From a virus, in the IMG/VR virus record IMGVR_UViG_3300012228_000001, positions 1 through 64,000 of that record: a stretch of 64,000 nucleotides of DNA. The stretch is one strand, 5' to 3'. The notes below the pieces were generated by a model that worked only from the letters and a program-made list of their open reading frames with translations, was not told where the DNA came from and ran no database searches. Made by a program: the position numbers and the translations under genes. Shown here piece after piece: positions 26,519 to 56,351 of this stretch (positions within the stretch are counted from its first letter, which is position 1; every line of letters begins with the position of its first letter).

Positions 26519-27199
26519 TTAATACACTGCCGGGTTTTCAGCTCCCATAAGCGAGCCGTAAAGCCCTGCGGCCTTGTCTTCGATCCCTTTGATTAGCGAT
26601 TCCGGCATGGCCGGGAAGTTGCCGAAGCCGTCCAGTATCCGGTTGAATATTTCCAGCGGCGACCCCAAATCCTTTATCAAGCTGTCGAGTAGGACGGACG
26701 GGTTATTCAGAAAATCTTCGAGCACCAAAAACTCAATGTTGTACTTATACAAAAACTGATGCTGGATGCTGCGCTCGTACTGAAACTGAGTAATACGGAT
26801 TTTGAAAAAGTGCATGTCCGATACGTCCATAAAAATCCACGCGCTGCCCCGGTCGCGCACCGACGCTTGCGCTTGGTTGTAAAAATTCGTCGCCATCCCT
26901 TCGAGCAGGCGATATTGGAGTTGGCCGGGAAGTGGAACGCCCGCAAGCCCCCATTGCGGCGTCGCCTTGAATCCGAACGTGCCGCGAATGTTACCTTTAG
27001 GGACGCCAGCGCCAAACCAGTTTTCAAAATTGCTACGCAAGGTTTGCACCACCCCGCCGCGTGTCGGGATAGTGAGCTGAAAACTTTCGGGGTTGACCGG
27101 GAAAATATAGAACGCTGAAAACGTCGATCCCGTCGTGCGAAAAACGAACGGCAGAGATTGCATGTTTCGCAGTGTTTTATCGAGAGATCCGTTGCTCAT
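26519..27199 (-). CDS. Tail/baseplate structural protein, 226 aa
   Basis: Starts MSNGSLDKTLRNMQSLPFVFR and has LFYIFPVNPESFQLTIPTRGGVVQTLRSNFENWFGAG, a pattern shared by tail proteins adjoining LysM wedge genes in phages. It overlaps the next gene by four bases. A role as hub-associated or gp48/gp54-like tube initiator is an inference from position. Confidence 0.6.
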   Translation of the reverse strand: MSNGSLDKTLRNMQSLPFVFRTTGSTFSAFYIFPVNPESFQLTIPTRGGVVQTLRSNFENWFGAGVPKGNIRGTFGFKATPQWGLAGVPLPGQLQYRLLEGMATNFYNQAQASVRDRGSAWIFMDVSDMHFFKIRITQFQYERSIQHQFLYKYNIEFLVLEDFLNNPSVLLDSLIKDLGSPLEIFNRILDGFGNFPAMPESLIKGIEDKAAGLYGSLMGAENPAVY

Positions 27200-43072: not shown

Positions 43073-44566
43073 TTAGTTGAACGGTCTCCACGTCGCCGTG
43101 CGCGGCAACACGTTATTCAAGATGACGTGCTGTTGCGGCTTGGCGACTCGCAGCGCGAAGAAGATCAACTGCGCCCACAAGATTTCCGCCGTGGTGCTTG
43201 GATAGAGCGGGAATTTCATCATCGGGAGCAAGCGCCGGATCGTAAGAGCGCCCATACCCGGCACCATGTTCAGGATGTACGCTTTCGACGTGCCGGGAAT
43301 GTCGGTGTTGTAGTCGACATAGACGGTCGTTGCAGCGCCCGAATCGGCGACGCGGGTCATTTCGCGGAAGTCTGCGTCGGCATTGCCGCCGTTTAACTTG
43401 CTGCGATAAACAATCCAACCGCTCGGATGCGCGGTGCCCGCCGTGATCGTCAACGTGACTTTATCGCCAGACGCGACAGTTACTTGTGCGCTCTTGGTCA
43501 GGTTGCCGTGGCCGTCCTTGGTGATCGGCGCGACGGCGTAGTAGTACAAGCCCGCCTGCGCAGCGACAAACTCCGAAGCGGCATCCCCGGCTGCTACGCC
43601 CCCGAGGGTAGCGGCGGCTTCGATAGTCGCATTGAGAGCACCGGCAAAGATACCCGTGGCGGATTTCGCTGCCGGTTGAGATTCCAAAATCAGCTTGTCG
43701 AAACAAGCTTGGAGTCGGCCCTCGAAAGCGAAACTCGACTTGATGCCGATGACCGGCGCACCCTTCATAATGCCGAAGGCGCCGACTTCACTTGGCGAAC
43801 CCATCATTACACGGAAAGCCGGATCGAGACCCTTGTCGAGATCGGCCTGAACGCCGGTAGACCAAAAGCCGTGAGAAACCATGCCGAAGTTTCCGAAGCG
43901 GCTCACCTGCTCGGCAGCGTCGACGATCTGCTCGCCGGAATTGCCGATAGGTTGGCCCTTCAGATTCACGATATTGGCCGGTGCGAGGGTCTTGATAATC
44001 TTGTAGAGACCGTCGAACTGTTCCGGCACAACAGACGAGTCGCCGTTGAACAAACCCCACTCACCAGAAGTAAGCAGTTCCAACGCGCCGCCAGTTTGCT
44101 GCACGGAAGTAGCCGAAGCGATGCCGCCTTCCAATTCCTTGACGAACGAAACGCGCCGCTTGGTCATCAGATATTTGATCTGCAACGTGCGACGGCGCAG
44201 CGTAGCATCCTGCTCGCCGATTGCGCCGAGTTCGGAATTGAACGAACTGCCGGGATAGCCGCCGACAGCAGTCTCTTCCGTCCATTCGTCGACAGTCGCG
44301 GTAGCGTTGCTCTTTTCAGCCATGTTCCACAGACGGAAATCCGTGAACTGCTGAATGACCGCGAGCAATGTGGCCTCCAAGCTTTGACGCCGCAAAGCGC
44401 CGCCGCCTGTTAAACTAGCCACGTCGGTCACGCCCGTACCAGACGTAAGGGCTTTGAAAAATCCCTCGTAAGCGTCATAGTCGAGTAGGTTGGGGATGCG
44501 CGGGATGCCGCTGCCACCCTCTACTGAACCAAACGGGATCAGTGGATATCCGCCTGCAAGTTCCAT
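43073..44566 (-). CDS. Major capsid protein
   Basis: The 497-residue protein has the expected size and position for the HK97-fold major capsid protein, following protease and scaffold-like genes. Near residues 54-61 it has GGGALRRQSL, a peptide shared with the protease. A beta sandwich insert from about residue 320 to 420 (GLYYYAVAPITKDGHGNLTKSA, then SGWIVYRSKLN) looks like a fibronectin/Ig-type domain for surface display. GGGGG before the ATG is the ribosome site. Evolutionary class cannot be told from sequence alone. Confidence 0.8.
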   Translation of the reverse strand: MELAGGYPLIPFGSVEGGSGIPRIPNLLDYDAYEGFFKALTSGTGVTDVASLTGGGALRRQSLEATLLAVIQQFTDFRLWNMAEKSNATATVDEWTEETAVGGYPGSSFNSELGAIGEQDATLRRRTLQIKYLMTKRRVSFVKELEGGIASATSVQQTGGALELLTSGEWGLFNGDSSVVPEQFDGLYKIIKTLAPANIVNLKGQPIGNSGEQIVDAAEQVSRFGNFGMVSHGFWSTGVQADLDKGLDPAFRVMMGSPSEVGAFGIMKGAPVIGIKSSFAFEGRLQACFDKLILESQPAAKSATGIFAGALNATIEAAATLGGVAAGDAASEFVAAQAGLYYYAVAPITKDGHGNLTKSAQVTVASGDKVTLTITAGTAHPSGWIVYRSKLNGGNADADFREMTRVADSGAATTVYVDYNTDIPGTSKAYILNMVPGMGALTIRRLLPMMKFPLYPSTTAEILWAQLIFFALRVAKPQQHVILNNVLPRTATWRPFN

Positions 44567-45518: not shown

Positions 45519-46379
45519 TTAAGCGACCAATTTGAAAATTTGGATCACTGTCTTTTTCGCAATATCGACCGGCTTGCCCGCGCACTTGACTAAATGCTCA
45601 AGCGCCTCTTTCGGATCGTCGGTCTCTTCGTCGTGCCCGCACTTCTTTTTGCCGCCCTGAATTTGCGCCATCGGTGCGCCGTGCAAGCTTTGGCGTCGCA
45701 ATGCTTCGCCGCCAGCCATCGCGTTGCTATCCGTGCTGCCCGGCCCGGCGACAAGCGCTTTCGCCATGTCCGCCCATGCCCACGAGTTCACGGGCTTGGT
45801 CGTCAAGACAACGTTCGTGACCATGCAGGCTTTGCTTGACGGATCGCCGAGATTTTGCACCGGGAGATATGCGCCCTCGATTGAGTAGCCAAGCTTGCGA
45901 TCAAACCCTGACTTGCGGATCGCTTGAATCAAATCCCATGCGTCGTCGGCGGCTTTCTTTACGCCCGCAGGGAATAGGTGGCCCCAAATCGCCGTGCCGG
46001 ATTTCATCGCGCCGTTGATCGGATCGCGATACTGGACACCCTTCTCGACACGCTCTGGCACGCCGATAATGTTGGCCGTTTCACCGGCATGACAAGTCGG
46101 GCATTCGCCGGAAAAATGTTCAAATTTAAGAAAGCCCTGGCGGGTTGAGAAGCGGTCGAAATCGATCTGGTCGGCGAGCGCCGCGCCGAGATTTTTCCCC
46201 ATCGCTTGAAGCATCGGGGAGTAGGTCGAAAATTGCTCAAGGATCACTTCGCCGTCCAAGTCGCGGTCTTCGGTCGAGATAATGCCGCAAATCATCCGGT
46301 CGGTCGGGCTGGAAATCTCCACGGATTTCTCAACGTCAAGCGGCACCCAAAAACTAAACGGTTGGCGAGTTCTGTCCAT
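45519..46379 (-). CDS. Prohead maturation protease
   Basis: The 286-residue frame has MICGIISTEDRDLDGEVI, then FLKFEHFSG (catalytic His candidate) and LGYSIEGAY (Ser candidate, the S-I-x-G of herpesvirus-like prohead proteases). A CPTC/H knuckle (GECPTCHAG) follows the His. Near the C-terminus GGEALRRQSL nearly repeats a peptide of the capsid protein and may be an autocleavage site. The ATG at 46379 lacks an SD, lying five bases after a terminator U-run; translation start is uncertain. It is the first late gene. Confidence 0.75.
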   Translation of the reverse strand: MDRTRQPFSFWVPLDVEKSVEISSPTDRMICGIISTEDRDLDGEVILEQFSTYSPMLQAMGKNLGAALADQIDFDRFSTRQGFLKFEHFSGECPTCHAGETANIIGVPERVEKGVQYRDPINGAMKSGTAIWGHLFPAGVKKAADDAWDLIQAIRKSGFDRKLGYSIEGAYLPVQNLGDPSSKACMVTNVVLTTKPVNSWAWADMAKALVAGPGSTDSNAMAGGEALRRQSLHGAPMAQIQGGKKKCGHDEETDDPKEALEHLVKCAGKPVDIAKKTVIQIFKLVA

Positions 46380-46383
46380 AAAC

Positions 46384-46418
46384 AAAAAAAGCCCGCCAGG
46401 GATTACCTGTGCGGGCTT
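46384..46418 (-). terminator. Intrinsic terminator in front of the late operon
   Basis: AAGCCCGC and GCGGGCTT pair at 46418-46411 and 46396-46389 with AGG/CCT pairing inside the loop region, followed in transcription by seven Us (46390-46384). It sits five bases before the protease ATG, between the leader RNA and the coding region. It would end transcription from the promoter at 46532 unless countered. Confidence 0.75.
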
Positions 46419-46423
46419 GAAGC

Positions 46424-46497
46424 CACAATGACACGACTCACTTCGGAGTCGGCCTTCCTGTCTAATCGGTTTTACCGAAACAGCTTTCCAAATTGTG
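46424..46497 (-). ncRNA. Three-way-junction leader RNA of the late operon (candidate)
   Basis: In minus sense, CACAAT (46497-46492) and ATTGTG (46429-46424) form a closing stem. Inside are CTGT..ACAG enclosing TCGG-N5-CCGA (46483-46458) and CGACTC-N6-GAGTCG (46451-46434). The predicted start of transcription falls near 46496, the first base of the fold. Aptamer-like domain, terminator and coding start follow one another in order, as in a transcriptional riboswitch or a cis antitermination element. Confidence 0.5.
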
Positions 46498-46502
46498 ATT
46501 CT

Positions 46503-46532
46503 CGTTTACCACCCCTGCTTATACATTGTCAA
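46503..46532 (-). promoter_or_regulatory. Promoter of the late operon
   Basis: Minus strand: TTGACA (46532-46527, perfect -35), 18 bases, TAAACG (46508-46503) with TG just before (TGG-TAAACG, extended -10). It points to the late operon. A rightward promoter may also lie nearby (TTGAAG, 16 bases, TATTAA, about 46583-46610). Confidence 0.5.
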
Positions 46533-46620: not shown

Positions 46621-46637
46621 CAAGAAAGGGGTGGCAA

Positions 46638-47057
46638 GTGAAGAACGAAGTAATCGAGGCAATCAAGGTGGTGAAAGAGTTCACCAGCAAGTCTCAATTC
46701 GCTGCGATGCGCGAAGGGCTTAAAGACGATGACGGTCAATACTTCGCCGACAAGTTCATGGAGATCGCGACCACGATCAACGGCATGGCAAAGACTTACG
46801 AGCAGAGCGGCATGGGCGACGAGGCCATTGCTTACCTGCACTACTTTCTCGGATCGATGGATTTCTACATCACGGAGAAAGACATAGGCAGCGACGACGA
46901 GCCGGGACAGCATCAAGCTTTCGGCTTGGCCGATCACGGCTACGGCGCTGAACTTGGCTATATCTCAATCGTCGAGCTGGTTGAGAACGGCGTCGAGCTG
47001 GACTTGAACTCACGCCAAAGACGTTGGCGGAAATCAAAGCGGAGCGCGAGCCGGTAA
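46638..47057 (+). CDS. Hypothetical acidic phage protein, 139 aa
   Basis: Starts at GTG after AAGAAAGGGG; the long open frame upstream contains the leader box and is not coding. The product (KNEVIEAIKVVKEFTSKSQF) is helical and acidic with a basic end. No family recognised. It begins the plus-strand accessory operon. Confidence 0.6.
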   Translation: MKNEVIEAIKVVKEFTSKSQFAAMREGLKDDDGQYFADKFMEIATTINGMAKTYEQSGMGDEAIAYLHYFLGSMDFYITEKDIGSDDEPGQHQAFGLADHGYGAELGYISIVELVENGVELDLNSRQRRWRKSKRSASR

Positions 47058-50440: not shown

Positions 50441-50737
50441 ATGAAAGCGCAGGAAAAACACAAACTGTTTCGGGAGCAGGTCGCAAGCGGGGTGTGGCCG
50501 CAAGATAGCTGCGAGAAGTGCCTGCACAAATACTACGCCTGCAAGACATGCGGGCATAGCCAGTTCACCAAGCCGGATCAGCCGGACGAACTGTGCAGCA
50601 AGTGTCACGGCGGGGTTTTGGTCTATACCGAAACTCGCATCTGTTGCGAACGGTTCGGCCATCACTTGTACTCTTGCTGCCTGCACTGCGGCAACGATGA
50701 ACGGAATATCCGCAACATGAACTTTAGGGGGGAATAG
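50441..50737 (+). CDS. Cysteine-rich zinc protein, 98 aa
   Basis: CEKCLHKYYACKTCGHSQF and ELCSKCHGGVLVY, then CCLHCG: multiple CxxC pairs, rubredoxin-like zinc ribbons. The ATG at 50441 is preceded by AAAGGGGGGAG; an earlier ATG at 50423 lies in that site. It ends on the GTG start of the ParB-like gene. Confidence 0.65.
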   Translation: MKAQEKHKLFREQVASGVWPQDSCEKCLHKYYACKTCGHSQFTKPDQPDELCSKCHGGVLVYTETRICCERFGHHLYSCCLHCGNDERNIRNMNFRGE

Positions 50738-51591
50738 TGATTTTAGAGATACCGATTGAGCAGATAATGCCCGACCCGAACCAGCCCCGTAAAACTTTCG
50801 ATCAAGCCAAGATCGACTCGCTTGGTCAATCGATCAAGCAAGTGGGGCTGATTCAGCCTATTCTTGTCCGGCCCGCCGACGCCAACGGCGTGCATCTTAT
50901 CGTCGCGGGGGAGCGCCGCTACCGGGCGCATCTTTCCGCTTGCATCGGAGTAATCCGGTGTTGTATATATTACGGGGAAAATAAAGCTGAAACATTGGCG
51001 GTTCAGCTAATTGAGAACCTTGACCGTGAAGACATGAACCCTGTCGACACGGCCAAGGGTTTTCAATCGTTGTTGGAAGCGGGATGGCAAATCGAGACGG
51101 TCGCAGAGCGAACGGGATTAAGCCCAAGTACGATTCAATCGAAGTTGAATTTGCTTAATCTGGATCAACGGATTCAGAAGCAAGTCGCTGCCGGTCAACT
51201 CTTCGAGTCGGTTGCCATCGCCCTTTCACGACTAAGCAAGAACGGTCAGTTTCTAGCGCTGCGTAGGATCAAGTCGAAATCCTACGCGGAAGCAAGACCC
51301 GTGATCGACGCGGTGCTGTGCCAAGAACAGCAAGTCGATTTGTTCGCTGCGCCAGAATCTAAGCGCGACGCGAATAAGCTGGTTCGCGCCTACACGATGG
51401 CGATGTTGTCGCTTGTGGCGTTCTGCAAGAAAGTCTACGGCGACGACTACCGGGTGCTGGCGGGCAGGCTGGACGATGGCCGGTTAGGCAAGCGGATCGA
51501 CGAGATCGATCTGGCGATCAAAGGTTTGAAAAGAATCAAGCATGAACTGGAAGTCTACCAGCACGCGAAAAAACTTAGGAGAGTGGCATGA
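50737..51591 (+). CDS. ParB/Spo0J-like nuclease-fold DNA-binding protein
   Basis: The 284-residue protein has ILEIPIEQIMPDPNQPRKTF, the ParB N-terminal opening, HLIVAGERRYRAHLSA (the GERRxRA CTP/arm motif), VQLIENLDREDMNPVDTAKGFQ and a helix-turn-helix (ETVAERTGLSPSTIQSKLNLL). ParB-family proteins bind parS-like sites; in phages without ParA they often act as regulators or nucleases. No ParA gene is visible nearby. GTG start overlaps the preceding stop. C-terminal 100 residues vary from chromosomal ParB. Confidence 0.85.
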   Translation: MILEIPIEQIMPDPNQPRKTFDQAKIDSLGQSIKQVGLIQPILVRPADANGVHLIVAGERRYRAHLSACIGVIRCCIYYGENKAETLAVQLIENLDREDMNPVDTAKGFQSLLEAGWQIETVAERTGLSPSTIQSKLNLLNLDQRIQKQVAAGQLFESVAIALSRLSKNGQFLALRRIKSKSYAEARPVIDAVLCQEQQVDLFAAPESKRDANKLVRAYTMAMLSLVAFCKKVYGDDYRVLAGRLDDGRLGKRIDEIDLAIKGLKRIKHELEVYQHAKKLRRVA

Positions 51592-53829: not shown

Positions 53830-54345
53830 ATGATGGCGAAGGCCAAAGCAGAATACCAGCGACGATGGCGACGAGCTAATCTTGATAGGTTTGCGAAATG
53901 GCAAAGAGATTATAGATCGCGGCATCCCGAAAAAGTACGAGCGCAGTTAAACGCTTGGAGATTGAAGAATCCTGAATCATACAACGCCATCATCGCTCGC
54001 TGGCGAGATACGCATCGCGCAGAATGGCAAGCCTACAGCGCCAGATGGCGCAGAGAGAATGCCGCAGCTAGGCGCGAGCATGACTTGAAACGGCGGGCCG
54101 CAAAACAGAAAGCGACAATTCGGGACAGAAAGAAAATTGCCGCATGGATCAAGTCATGGCACCGAAAGCCGAAGGTCCGCTGTCACTGGTGCCGAAAGTA
54201 TTTGCCAGGGAGAAAGTGCCAAGTTGACCATGTAATCCCGCTGTCCAAGGGCGGGCGACACACGCTCAACAATCTGGTCAAATCGTGCGGCGATTGCAAC
54301 ATGCGCAAGGGCGCAAAACTAATTGTGAGGGTGAAGGGAGAGTAA
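53830..54345 (+). CDS. HNH endonuclease 1 with N-terminal repeat array
   Basis: The C-terminal core is WIKSWHRKPKVRCHWCRKY followed by DHVIPLSKGG and LVKSCGDCNMRK, a zinc HNH nuclease. N-terminal 80 residues are basic repeats of about 14-16 residues with Trp/Tyr anchors. It precedes the DUF1257 gene. Closely related to two further copies nearby. Confidence 0.88.
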   Translation: MMAKAKAEYQRRWRRANLDRFAKWQRDYRSRHPEKVRAQLNAWRLKNPESYNAIIARWRDTHRAEWQAYSARWRRENAAARREHDLKRRAAKQKATIRDRKKIAAWIKSWHRKPKVRCHWCRKYLPGRKCQVDHVIPLSKGGRHTLNNLVKSCGDCNMRKGAKLIVRVKGE

Positions 54346-54348
54346 GGC

Positions 54349-54364
54349 TTACTAACGGGCGCAA
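54349..54364 (+). repeat. Leader-box second element, copy C
   Basis: TTACTAACGGGCGCAA, similar to ATTATTAACGGGCGCAA, lies 25 bases before the DUF1257 start. No first element is beside it. Confidence 0.5.
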
Positions 54365-54388
54365 CCAAGGGAAGGGAGAAAGATCGAT

Positions 54389-54772
54389 ATGTCTCATATC
54401 GCGAATTACGCAACCGAGATTCAGAACCCCGACTTGAACCTGCTCGCGCAGGCTTTTCAAGTCGTGGCGCAAACCCACGGCGGGCAAGTAGGCTCGCAAG
54501 TTTTCGAGTACAGCAACAGCTACGCGCAGGACGTGCAGCTCGCGCTAACCACGCCGAACTTCAAGCGCGGCATCGGTATCAAGATCGGCGCAAACGGCAA
54601 GCTGGAATTTGTCGGCGATCCGTATAACGCGCAAAAGCAGTGGGCGGAATTACAGCAGGAAATACTAAACACGTTCACCGCGCTCGGCTTTAACGACGCG
54701 CTGCTTGAACTCGGCTACGCCGTCGATATCGAACAGTCTAACGGCGAGATTCAACTAACGGCCCTGGCGTGA
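54389..54772 (+). CDS. DUF1257 (Ycf35-like) protein
   Basis: The 127-residue product starts MSHIANYATEIQNPDLN, as DUF1257 proteins do, and has FKRGIGIKIGANGKLEFVGD and QTILNTF-like helices with GEIQLTAL at the end. In cyanobacteria and plastids DUF1257 (Ycf35) genes often associate with Ycf46 AAA proteins. Here it opens the ATPase cassette. Function of the family is unknown. Confidence 0.65.
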   Translation: MSHIANYATEIQNPDLNLLAQAFQVVAQTHGGQVGSQVFEYSNSYAQDVQLALTTPNFKRGIGIKIGANGKLEFVGDPYNAQKQWAELQQEILNTFTALGFNDALLELGYAVDIEQSNGEIQLTALA

Positions 54773-55422
54773 CCGAGCACCAGCGATTATTAGCCTGCCA
54801 AGCAACGGCAAGATGGCGCTCGGCGCATCGTGAGCAAGCCAGAGAAGCTACGCGGAAATGGCGACGTAAACATAGAAAGGGGGTTGAGGCGTACCGCAAG
54901 TTGTATCGAGAGCGAAACCGCAGCGCGATTTTAGCTTACAATGCACAATATCGAGTCAAACATAAAACGCGGCGCAATAAGTATAGTCGTCTGTGGTATG
55001 CGACTTATGGGAAAGAGTATCAAAATCAATGGTATGCCAGAAATCGGCACAGGTGTTTAACTTCTGCCGCCAAGTGGCGCGTAAAGCATTCTGACCGCAT
55101 CCTTAAATGGCGGGCTAATAACCCGCACATCTTACGACAGCAATCGATGAAACGTCGCGCCCTGAAGCGCGGTGCTGCCGTTGGGGATGCAAAGGCCATC
55201 ATCGCCTGGATAAAATCGTGGCAACGCAAGCGATGGGTTAAGTGCCACTGGTGCCGCAAATCATTTCTTGGCAAAAAGTGTCACGCCGATCATGTGATAC
55301 CGCTGTCCAAGGGCGGGGCGCATTCGAGAAGAAATCTGGTCGTGTCGTGTGCGACGTGCAATCGTCGAAAATTTACTCTGTTACCTAAATCATGGAAGGA
55401 GAAACGTTATGGCGGGTTTTAA
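54769..55422 (+). CDS. HNH endonuclease 2 with longer repeat array
   Basis: GTG start on the DUF1257 stop. The 217-residue protein has about eight basic repeats (WRSAHREQAREATRKW, YRERNRSAILAYNAQY, ..) before the core (WIKSWQRKRWVKCHWC, DHVIPLSKGGAHSRRNLVVSCATCNRRK). It overlaps the start of the DUF2997 gene by 14 bases. Same family as HNH 1. Confidence 0.88.
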   Translation: MTEHQRLLACQATARWRSAHREQAREATRKWRRKHRKGVEAYRKLYRERNRSAILAYNAQYRVKHKTRRNKYSRLWYATYGKEYQNQWYARNRHRCLTSAAKWRVKHSDRILKWRANNPHILRQQSMKRRALKRGAAVGDAKAIIAWIKSWQRKRWVKCHWCRKSFLGKKCHADHVIPLSKGGAHSRRNLVVSCATCNRRKFTLLPKSWKEKRYGGF

Positions 55423-55621
55423 GATTGTTATTCAGAAATCGGGGAATGTAATCACCGAAGCGGAAGGGTTCGCGGGAGAGACTTGTGTCACTCGTGCGGG
55501 CGAAATCATGGAAGCCCTTAAACGGCGCGGCATCGGCGTTCACCTGGATACTTTTCACATGAAAGACCCTTCGTGCGAAGGCGTCGTTCACTTGGCCGAC
55601 GTTTTGAAAAGCGGGAAGTAG
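55409..55621 (+). CDS. DUF2997-like protein, 70 aa
   Basis: Starts MAGFKIVIQKSGNVITEAEGFAGETC: a beta pair with GxxC pattern (GETCVTRAGEIMEAL) as in DUF2997 proteins that accompany DUF1257 and AAA genes. Ribosome site AAGGAGAAAC precedes the ATG. The family's role is unknown. Confidence 0.6.
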   Translation: MAGFKIVIQKSGNVITEAEGFAGETCVTRAGEIMEALKRRGIGVHLDTFHMKDPSCEGVVHLADVLKSGK

Positions 55622-55628
55622 TGCGGGC

Positions 55629-56351
55629 ATGAGCAAGCGGAGCAAGCAGCGCGAATACGACGCGAAGCGGAGATACGACCCTCACCGGATCGCTTCGCGT
55701 CGAGAACAGGGGCGGCGCTACCTTATCGCCAATCGGGACCGGATCACGAAATATCAACGCGAATGGGATGCGAACAACCGTGGGAAGAAAAGGGGGTATC
55801 AACGAAAATACTACGCCACGCACCGCAAGCAAATTAAAGCGCGTCGAGCGAATGGACGACCGGCTATGTTGGCTTACCTAAAGAAATATAGGGCGGCGCA
55901 CCGCGAAGAATTTGCCGCTCGCGACGCCGCATATCACCGGGCGCACCCGGAAGCCAATAGGGCTGCGGTTCGCAGATACTTCAAGCGGCATCGAAGGCGG
56001 ATCATGGCACGGATTAAACGCTGGAATGCGGCTCACCCGGAAAATGGACGCCAGCGAGTAATGCGATATCACGCCAGGAAGAAAGGGGCGAAGGTTGGCG
56101 ACGCAAAGGCAATCGCAGCATGGATTGCATCGTGGCACCGCAAGCCGAAAGTTCGCTGCCACTGGTGCCACAAGTATTTTCCCGGCAAGTCGTGCCATGC
56201 CGACCATGTTGTGCCGCTGTCCAAGGGCGGGGCGCATGTACTCAAAAACTTGGTTAAATCGTGCGGCGATTGCAACAGGCGTAAAAGCGCGAAGTTGCCG
56301 CAGAAATGGAGAAAGGAAATAAAACATGGACTGGTTTCACGAACTCGCTGA
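55629..56351 (+). CDS. HNH endonuclease 3 with longest repeat array
   Basis: The 240-residue protein has about ten basic repeat units (e.g. YLKKYRAAHREEFAARDAAY) then the HNH core WIASWHRKPKVRCHWCHKY, DHVVPLSKGG, LVKSCGDCNRRK. It overlaps the AAA gene start by 26 bases and the DUF2997 stop spacing is seven bases. Confidence 0.88.
   Translation: MSKRSKQREYDAKRRYDPHRIASRREQGRRYLIANRDRITKYQREWDANNRGKKRGYQRKYYATHRKQIKARRANGRPAMLAYLKKYRAAHREEFAARDAAYHRAHPEANRAAVRRYFKRHRRRIMARIKRWNAAHPENGRQRVMRYHARKKGAKVGDAKAIAAWIASWHRKPKVRCHWCHKYFPGKSCHADHVVPLSKGGAHVLKNLVKSCGDCNRRKSAKLPQKWRKEIKHGLVSRTR

Follow-up and report, generated by a model that had tools for sequence, protein, structure and literature searches.

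A promoter, a folded leader and a terminator before the head protease gene of an environmental phage: a putative gate for capsid gene expression

How are the capsid genes of a phage transcribed when an intrinsic terminator stands directly before the first of them? The question is raised by a 64,000-base stretch of DNA (hereafter the window), which covers positions 1-64000 of a metagenomic viral record, 103,292 bases long, that may be incomplete; the part of the record beyond the window was examined as two loci. An earlier note on this DNA had read the locus as a riboswitch-like or antitermination leader in front of the entire late operon. Late-gene control has been worked out in few phages, and a search of the open-licence full-text literature found no report of such an arrangement.

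Promoter and terminator at the protease gene

The head maturation protease gene (45519..46379, minus strand; 286 aa; PHROG head maturation protease, E 2.8e-23) is the first gene of the capsid operon, with the gene for the major head protein (43073..44566, minus strand) downstream of it. The C-terminus of the protease (approximately residues 195-246) is similar to the N-terminus of the major head protein, which perhaps represents a common cleavage or assembly signal. Upstream, the neighbouring gene (46635..47057, plus strand; PHROG 5203 match) is divergent, so that no co-directional gene feeds the protease, and protease transcripts should begin within the ~255-bp gap and run across the terminator. 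The portal gene, a terminase large-subunit-like gene and a tail-fibre-like gene are located away from the capsid operon, and the portal block has a cassette of its own. The leader thus precedes the capsid operon, which is less than the entire late operon of the earlier note. Elsewhere in the window, three HNH endonuclease genes lie inside 2.5 kb (53830-56351), and a gene for a ParB-like protein (50737-51591) is found among rightward genes.

The intrinsic terminator, AAGCCCGCACAGG..CCUGGCGGGCUU followed by U7 (46384..46418, minus strand; -20.6 kcal/mol), consists of a hairpin at 46418-46389 and a T7 run at 46390-46384, from which the protease ATG (46379-46377) is separated by the four bases GTTT. 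This ATG has no Shine-Dalgarno sequence, while many other genes of the phage possess one; a strong hairpin with seven Us and a close ATG lacking a ribosome site had been described before, and the sequence reads accordingly, with a gap of four bases. Across both strands of the 103 kb, only two compact hairpins with a U-tract (32 nt or less, -18 kcal/mol or better) were found, this one and another at 96957 (minus strand). The scan also gave an imperfect hairpin of 40 nt at 26876, located where the operon's coding frames run.

The -35 element TTGACA (46527..46532, minus strand) can be read directly, and it recurs in the close relative L002 and in the portal cassette. It is separated by 18 nt from the -10 element TAAACG (46503..46508, minus strand), which has TGG, and hence TG, before it. 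The perfect -35 element, the 18-base spacer and the extended -10 of the earlier description therefore stand, but the strength that it implied does not: TAAACG matches TATAAT at only 3/6 positions, L002 has TATAAG at the aligned position, and a simple promoter scan (at least 9/12) missed the promoter in the window. By itself, the promoter of the protease cassette is unremarkable. RNA is predicted to start at A46496 on the minus strand, giving a leader of ~110-113 nt. Its predicted 5' end is formed by the ACAATTTGG block (46488..46496, minus strand), which L002 shares without a change; the block has a single site in the 103-kb record and contains a -10-like hexamer (CACAAT/AACAAT, 4/6).

In Q systems, a sigma-dependent pause element is expected at such a site. 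By analogy, the conserved block would suit a pause of this kind, and the locus could then work by Q-like processive antitermination, in which a phage protein loads near the promoter and the modified polymerase ignores the terminator, the fold of the leader being of minor importance. The likeness to lambda pR'-tR' extends to the promoter, the short terminated transcript and the late genes that follow, which in lambda are turned on by read-through. However, the -10-like hexamer is not general among the other leaders compared, and homologs of lambda Q and Q21 (PF06530 and PF03589) were absent from the possibly incomplete record, in a search whose controls worked. The window phage also differs from lambda in having two cassettes for separate structural blocks, a terminator at most five bases from the first ATG and a strongly folded leader. 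We regard a Q-like mechanism as rather unlikely.

Leader fold and the second cassette

Together with its terminator, the leader folds better than dinucleotide shuffles (z -3.3), and it contains two stable predicted hairpins (46458..46483 and 46430..46454, minus strand), the sequences of which are not conserved. The 74-base three-way junction proposed earlier is not supported. Its outer stem, CACAAU/AUUGUG, is missing from the minimum free energy structure of an RNA starting at A46496, and in the window it forms only when a few 5' bases are added. The earlier note had asked for conservation of the stems in relatives; L002, the one close relative, retains the 5' strand of the outer stem (ACAAUUUGG) but lacks AUUGU, so that the stem is impossible there. 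L002 speaks against a three-way junction as the conserved core, and with the folding from the predicted start it leaves the junction unsupported as the working fold. This also bears on a metabolite riboswitch, in which the leader would bind a small molecule via the junction: the order of fold and then terminator suits such an element, but no Rfam family was found in the window at the gathering cut-off (permissive mode gave only weak non-riboswitch matches) or in 11 related loci, and neither the outer stem nor the hairpin sequences are conserved in the way a riboswitch would lead one to expect. We consider a metabolite riboswitch very improbable.

A pair of stem-loops opening a phage transcript that has to pass terminators is also known from the put sites of HK022 (PMC9378689), and the two predicted hairpins of the window leader resemble them in this respect. 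The put sites, however, act in early operons on far-away terminators, whereas the hairpins of the window abut a single terminator and differ in sequence between relatives.

Prefix folding of the window leader predicts that the 5' arm of the terminator pairs upstream before the terminator is completed (UGUGGCU/AGC(C)CCGCA). The resulting candidate antiterminator, UGUGGCU-UCA-AGC(C)CCGCA (46410..46427, minus strand), overlaps that arm and occupies the same position as the antiterminator of distant relatives described below; as a single-sequence prediction it is no better than chance alone (p 0.3 against shuffles). A different alternative pairing, AUUUGGU/GCCGAAU, was predicted in L002, and the portal cassette gave no convincing one. 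Such single-leader tests are weak (median p 0.28, with 11% below 0.05) because 4-bp hairpins are common, and the argument for an antiterminator therefore rests on covariation and location.

L002 is a 5-kb locus with a protease 67% identical to that of the window, and it was the sole find when more close relatives were sought with the protease and its two-sequence profile. It displays the same succession of parts: TTGACA-N18-TATAAG with TG, the ACAATTTGG block, two hairpins, a terminator of -25 kcal/mol and the protease start ATGGAC. Its promoter is better than that of the window, its leader sequence has diverged, and its two predicted hairpins differ from those of the window. In L276, from the same metagenome as L002, an additional promoter lies between the terminator and the portal gene, which counts against gating by the terminator.

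The second compact terminator of the record belongs to a second cassette (97050-96924 of the record, minus strand), upstream of the portal gene. Its promoter, TTGACA-N17-TATAAA at 97050 (minus strand), is preceded at a distance of 60 bp by a similar element (97110). The leader again has two hairpins (z -4.5), and the terminator (-22.4 kcal/mol) carries TTTTTGTTTATGGAC at its end, where the protease cassette has TTTTTTTGTTTATGGAC; TTTTGTTTATG has exactly two sites in the record, which are the two cassettes. Downstream follow a 31-codon ORF, seen by eye, another small ORF and the portal gene (637 aa; PHROG 3e-30; Pfam PF04860). The 31-codon ORF (L085, record ~96920-96825, minus strand), directly 3' of the terminator, encodes a hydrophobic stretch. 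The phage thus has two cassettes of the same design, one for each block of structural genes.

Terminators and alternative pairing in distant relatives

Distant loci were gathered by searches with the major head protein. In a clade around the locus L060, whose head proteins are ~56-76% identical to that of L060 and ~30% identical to that of the window, the head protease lies behind a sigma70-type promoter with a short leader and terminator in 36/58 nonredundant loci; other gene starts of these loci, taken as controls, showed this order in 4/344 cases (Fisher p 1e-31). When the printed sequences were read, several loci scored as misses proved to have the layout as well. In a mixed set, the order of promoter, terminator and protease was found in 50/171 cases versus 4/400.

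The leaders of the L060 clade carry CUCCANAAAGGGAG just 5' of the terminator, and its CUCC can pair with GGAG, which is the 5' arm of the terminator. Across 60 leaders, two-sided changes were found in 6/6 tested pairs of CUCC/GGAG, compared with 2.8 in shuffles (0/500), and variant pairs include CACUCU/AGAGUG, GCUUC/GAAGC, GUUUCC/GGAAAU and UCCC/GGGA. The pairing holds in 75.6% of cells versus 43-64% when the partner is slid; this paired fraction shows no excess over shuffles (145/500), because one consensus is common to most of the sequences. The terminator helix of these leaders has good support, being 88.5% paired, with a covariation of 0.306 versus 0.162. These co-varying arms may reflect a regulated switch. 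Short antiterminators that share bases with a terminator arm are known from the RAT elements of LicT/SacY and from the ribosomal protein L10 attenuators, which the CUCC leaders resemble in this sharing; here, the element stands before a phage head protease, and the RNA sequence, the genes and the likely factor differ.

The exact pattern of antiterminator and terminator had 19 matches in the viral collection, and all of them lie directly before a head protease match (19/19). Bacterial genomes (257 Gb) gave six matches to the same pattern, none of them followed by a head protease match (0/6), and these are likely to be ordinary terminators. With one mismatch allowed, the CUCC motif occurs in 9/13 phage records, nearly always as a single copy. 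At L092:1566-2237, ~600 nt separate the upstream match of the leader model from the called protease start, and an HNH-type ORF, judged by eye, appears to be inserted between them.

These locations speak to the possibility, named in the earlier note as the main alternative, that the locus encodes a free, trans-acting small RNA with its 3' end at the terminator, the protease merely adjoining it. A folded RNA of 113 nt with its own promoter and terminator does resemble a small RNA gene. Among relatives, however, this reading is disfavoured because the element adjoins the head protease, at about one copy per phage record, and because its pairing arms co-vary; and no other route of transcription to the window protease was seen, given the divergent upstream gene. 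For the window itself, a small RNA is still a rival, albeit an improbable one.

The window has the layout of the CUCC type, in which the head protease is immediately preceded by a promoter, a leader and an intrinsic terminator. The CUCCANAAAGGGAG pattern is absent from its 103-kb record, and a covariance model of the CUCC leaders (R1) had no match there, so the window is no sequence member of the CUCC family; common descent of the two mechanisms finds no support in that model. Annotated phages searched for the window DNA or the CUCC leader gave no useful match, and the phage collection showed no isolate belonging to the CUCC group. SPO1 (Herelleviridae) has a homologous protease and major head protein, and a terminator between portal and protease, but neither a cassette of promoter, leader and terminator nor the CUCC motif was seen in that gap. 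In the P100-like Listeria phage CKA15, early and late promoter motifs are reported ahead of the major capsid gene, in passages that mention no leader terminator there (PMC12282133).

The SPO1 terminator, and others that precede the protease in phages lacking such a leader, would suit a fixed attenuator, in which a constant fraction of read-through sets the level of expression and nothing is regulated. A fixed attenuator would leave unexplained both the compensatory changes in the alternative pairing and the better-than-shuffle folding of the leaders, and we consider it unlikely.

Conditional termination as the proposed mechanism

The idea that structural genes lie behind a terminator that can be bypassed gained from the layout of L002, the second cassette and the enrichment in distant relatives, while a three-way-junction aptamer or riboswitch is not supported. 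From sequence comparison, the order of the parts recurs within the genome, in L002 and in distant relatives, and in the last of these the alternative pairing co-varies. We consider it fairly likely that the structural operons of this phage are controlled by conditional termination, with capsid genes gated by the terminator. RNA polymerase would start near 46496 and make the leader of ~113 nt, and by default it would stop at the terminator four bases before the protease ATG, so that capsid genes would be made only upon bypass; the portal block would be gated by the second cassette of the same kind. Bypass would most likely come about through a structure of the nascent RNA, or a phage factor acting on that structure. 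A model for it is provided by the short antiterminator hairpin of the distant relatives, in which the terminator's 5' arm takes part and to which the pairing predicted in the window is comparable. These comparisons lead us to infer a terminator that is active in vivo, a regulated read-through, a direction of switching and the participation of a factor.

Found in this phage and many of its relatives, the layout suggests that particle building is under an on/off switch of an undescribed kind. It is conceivable, though we propose it only tentatively, that the leaders belong to a widespread, undescribed family of RNA switches controlling head genes in uncultivated phages. In such switches the antiterminator would be stabilised by a phage factor, which the capsid operon itself perhaps encodes, and a diverged version would act at the two structural operons of the window phage. 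If conditional termination operates as proposed, a large group of environmental phages with head modules related to the SPO1 type would gate their capsid genes in this way rather than by new promoters alone, and each cassette would serve as a compact switch of natural origin.

Another promoter-like motif was observed in the group of loci L004-L055, where GTCGTGAC-N3-A-N2-AT-N5-CATG is repeated in 3-10 copies per genome and the reversed control pattern in 0; examples of the motif group are L269 (Pseudomonas phage Jeremy), L272, L273 and L275. TCGTGAC/T occurs near the called protease start in 41/46 loci, most often 21-22 nt upstream. The GTCGTGAC motif resembles a phage-specific promoter, and RNA made from it would begin with the A of the ATG, giving a leaderless mRNA. 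In L029, L037, L040 and L053, 102-124 nt separate the motif from the called protease start downstream, and this interval contains a leader and a terminator-like hairpin, as in the window.
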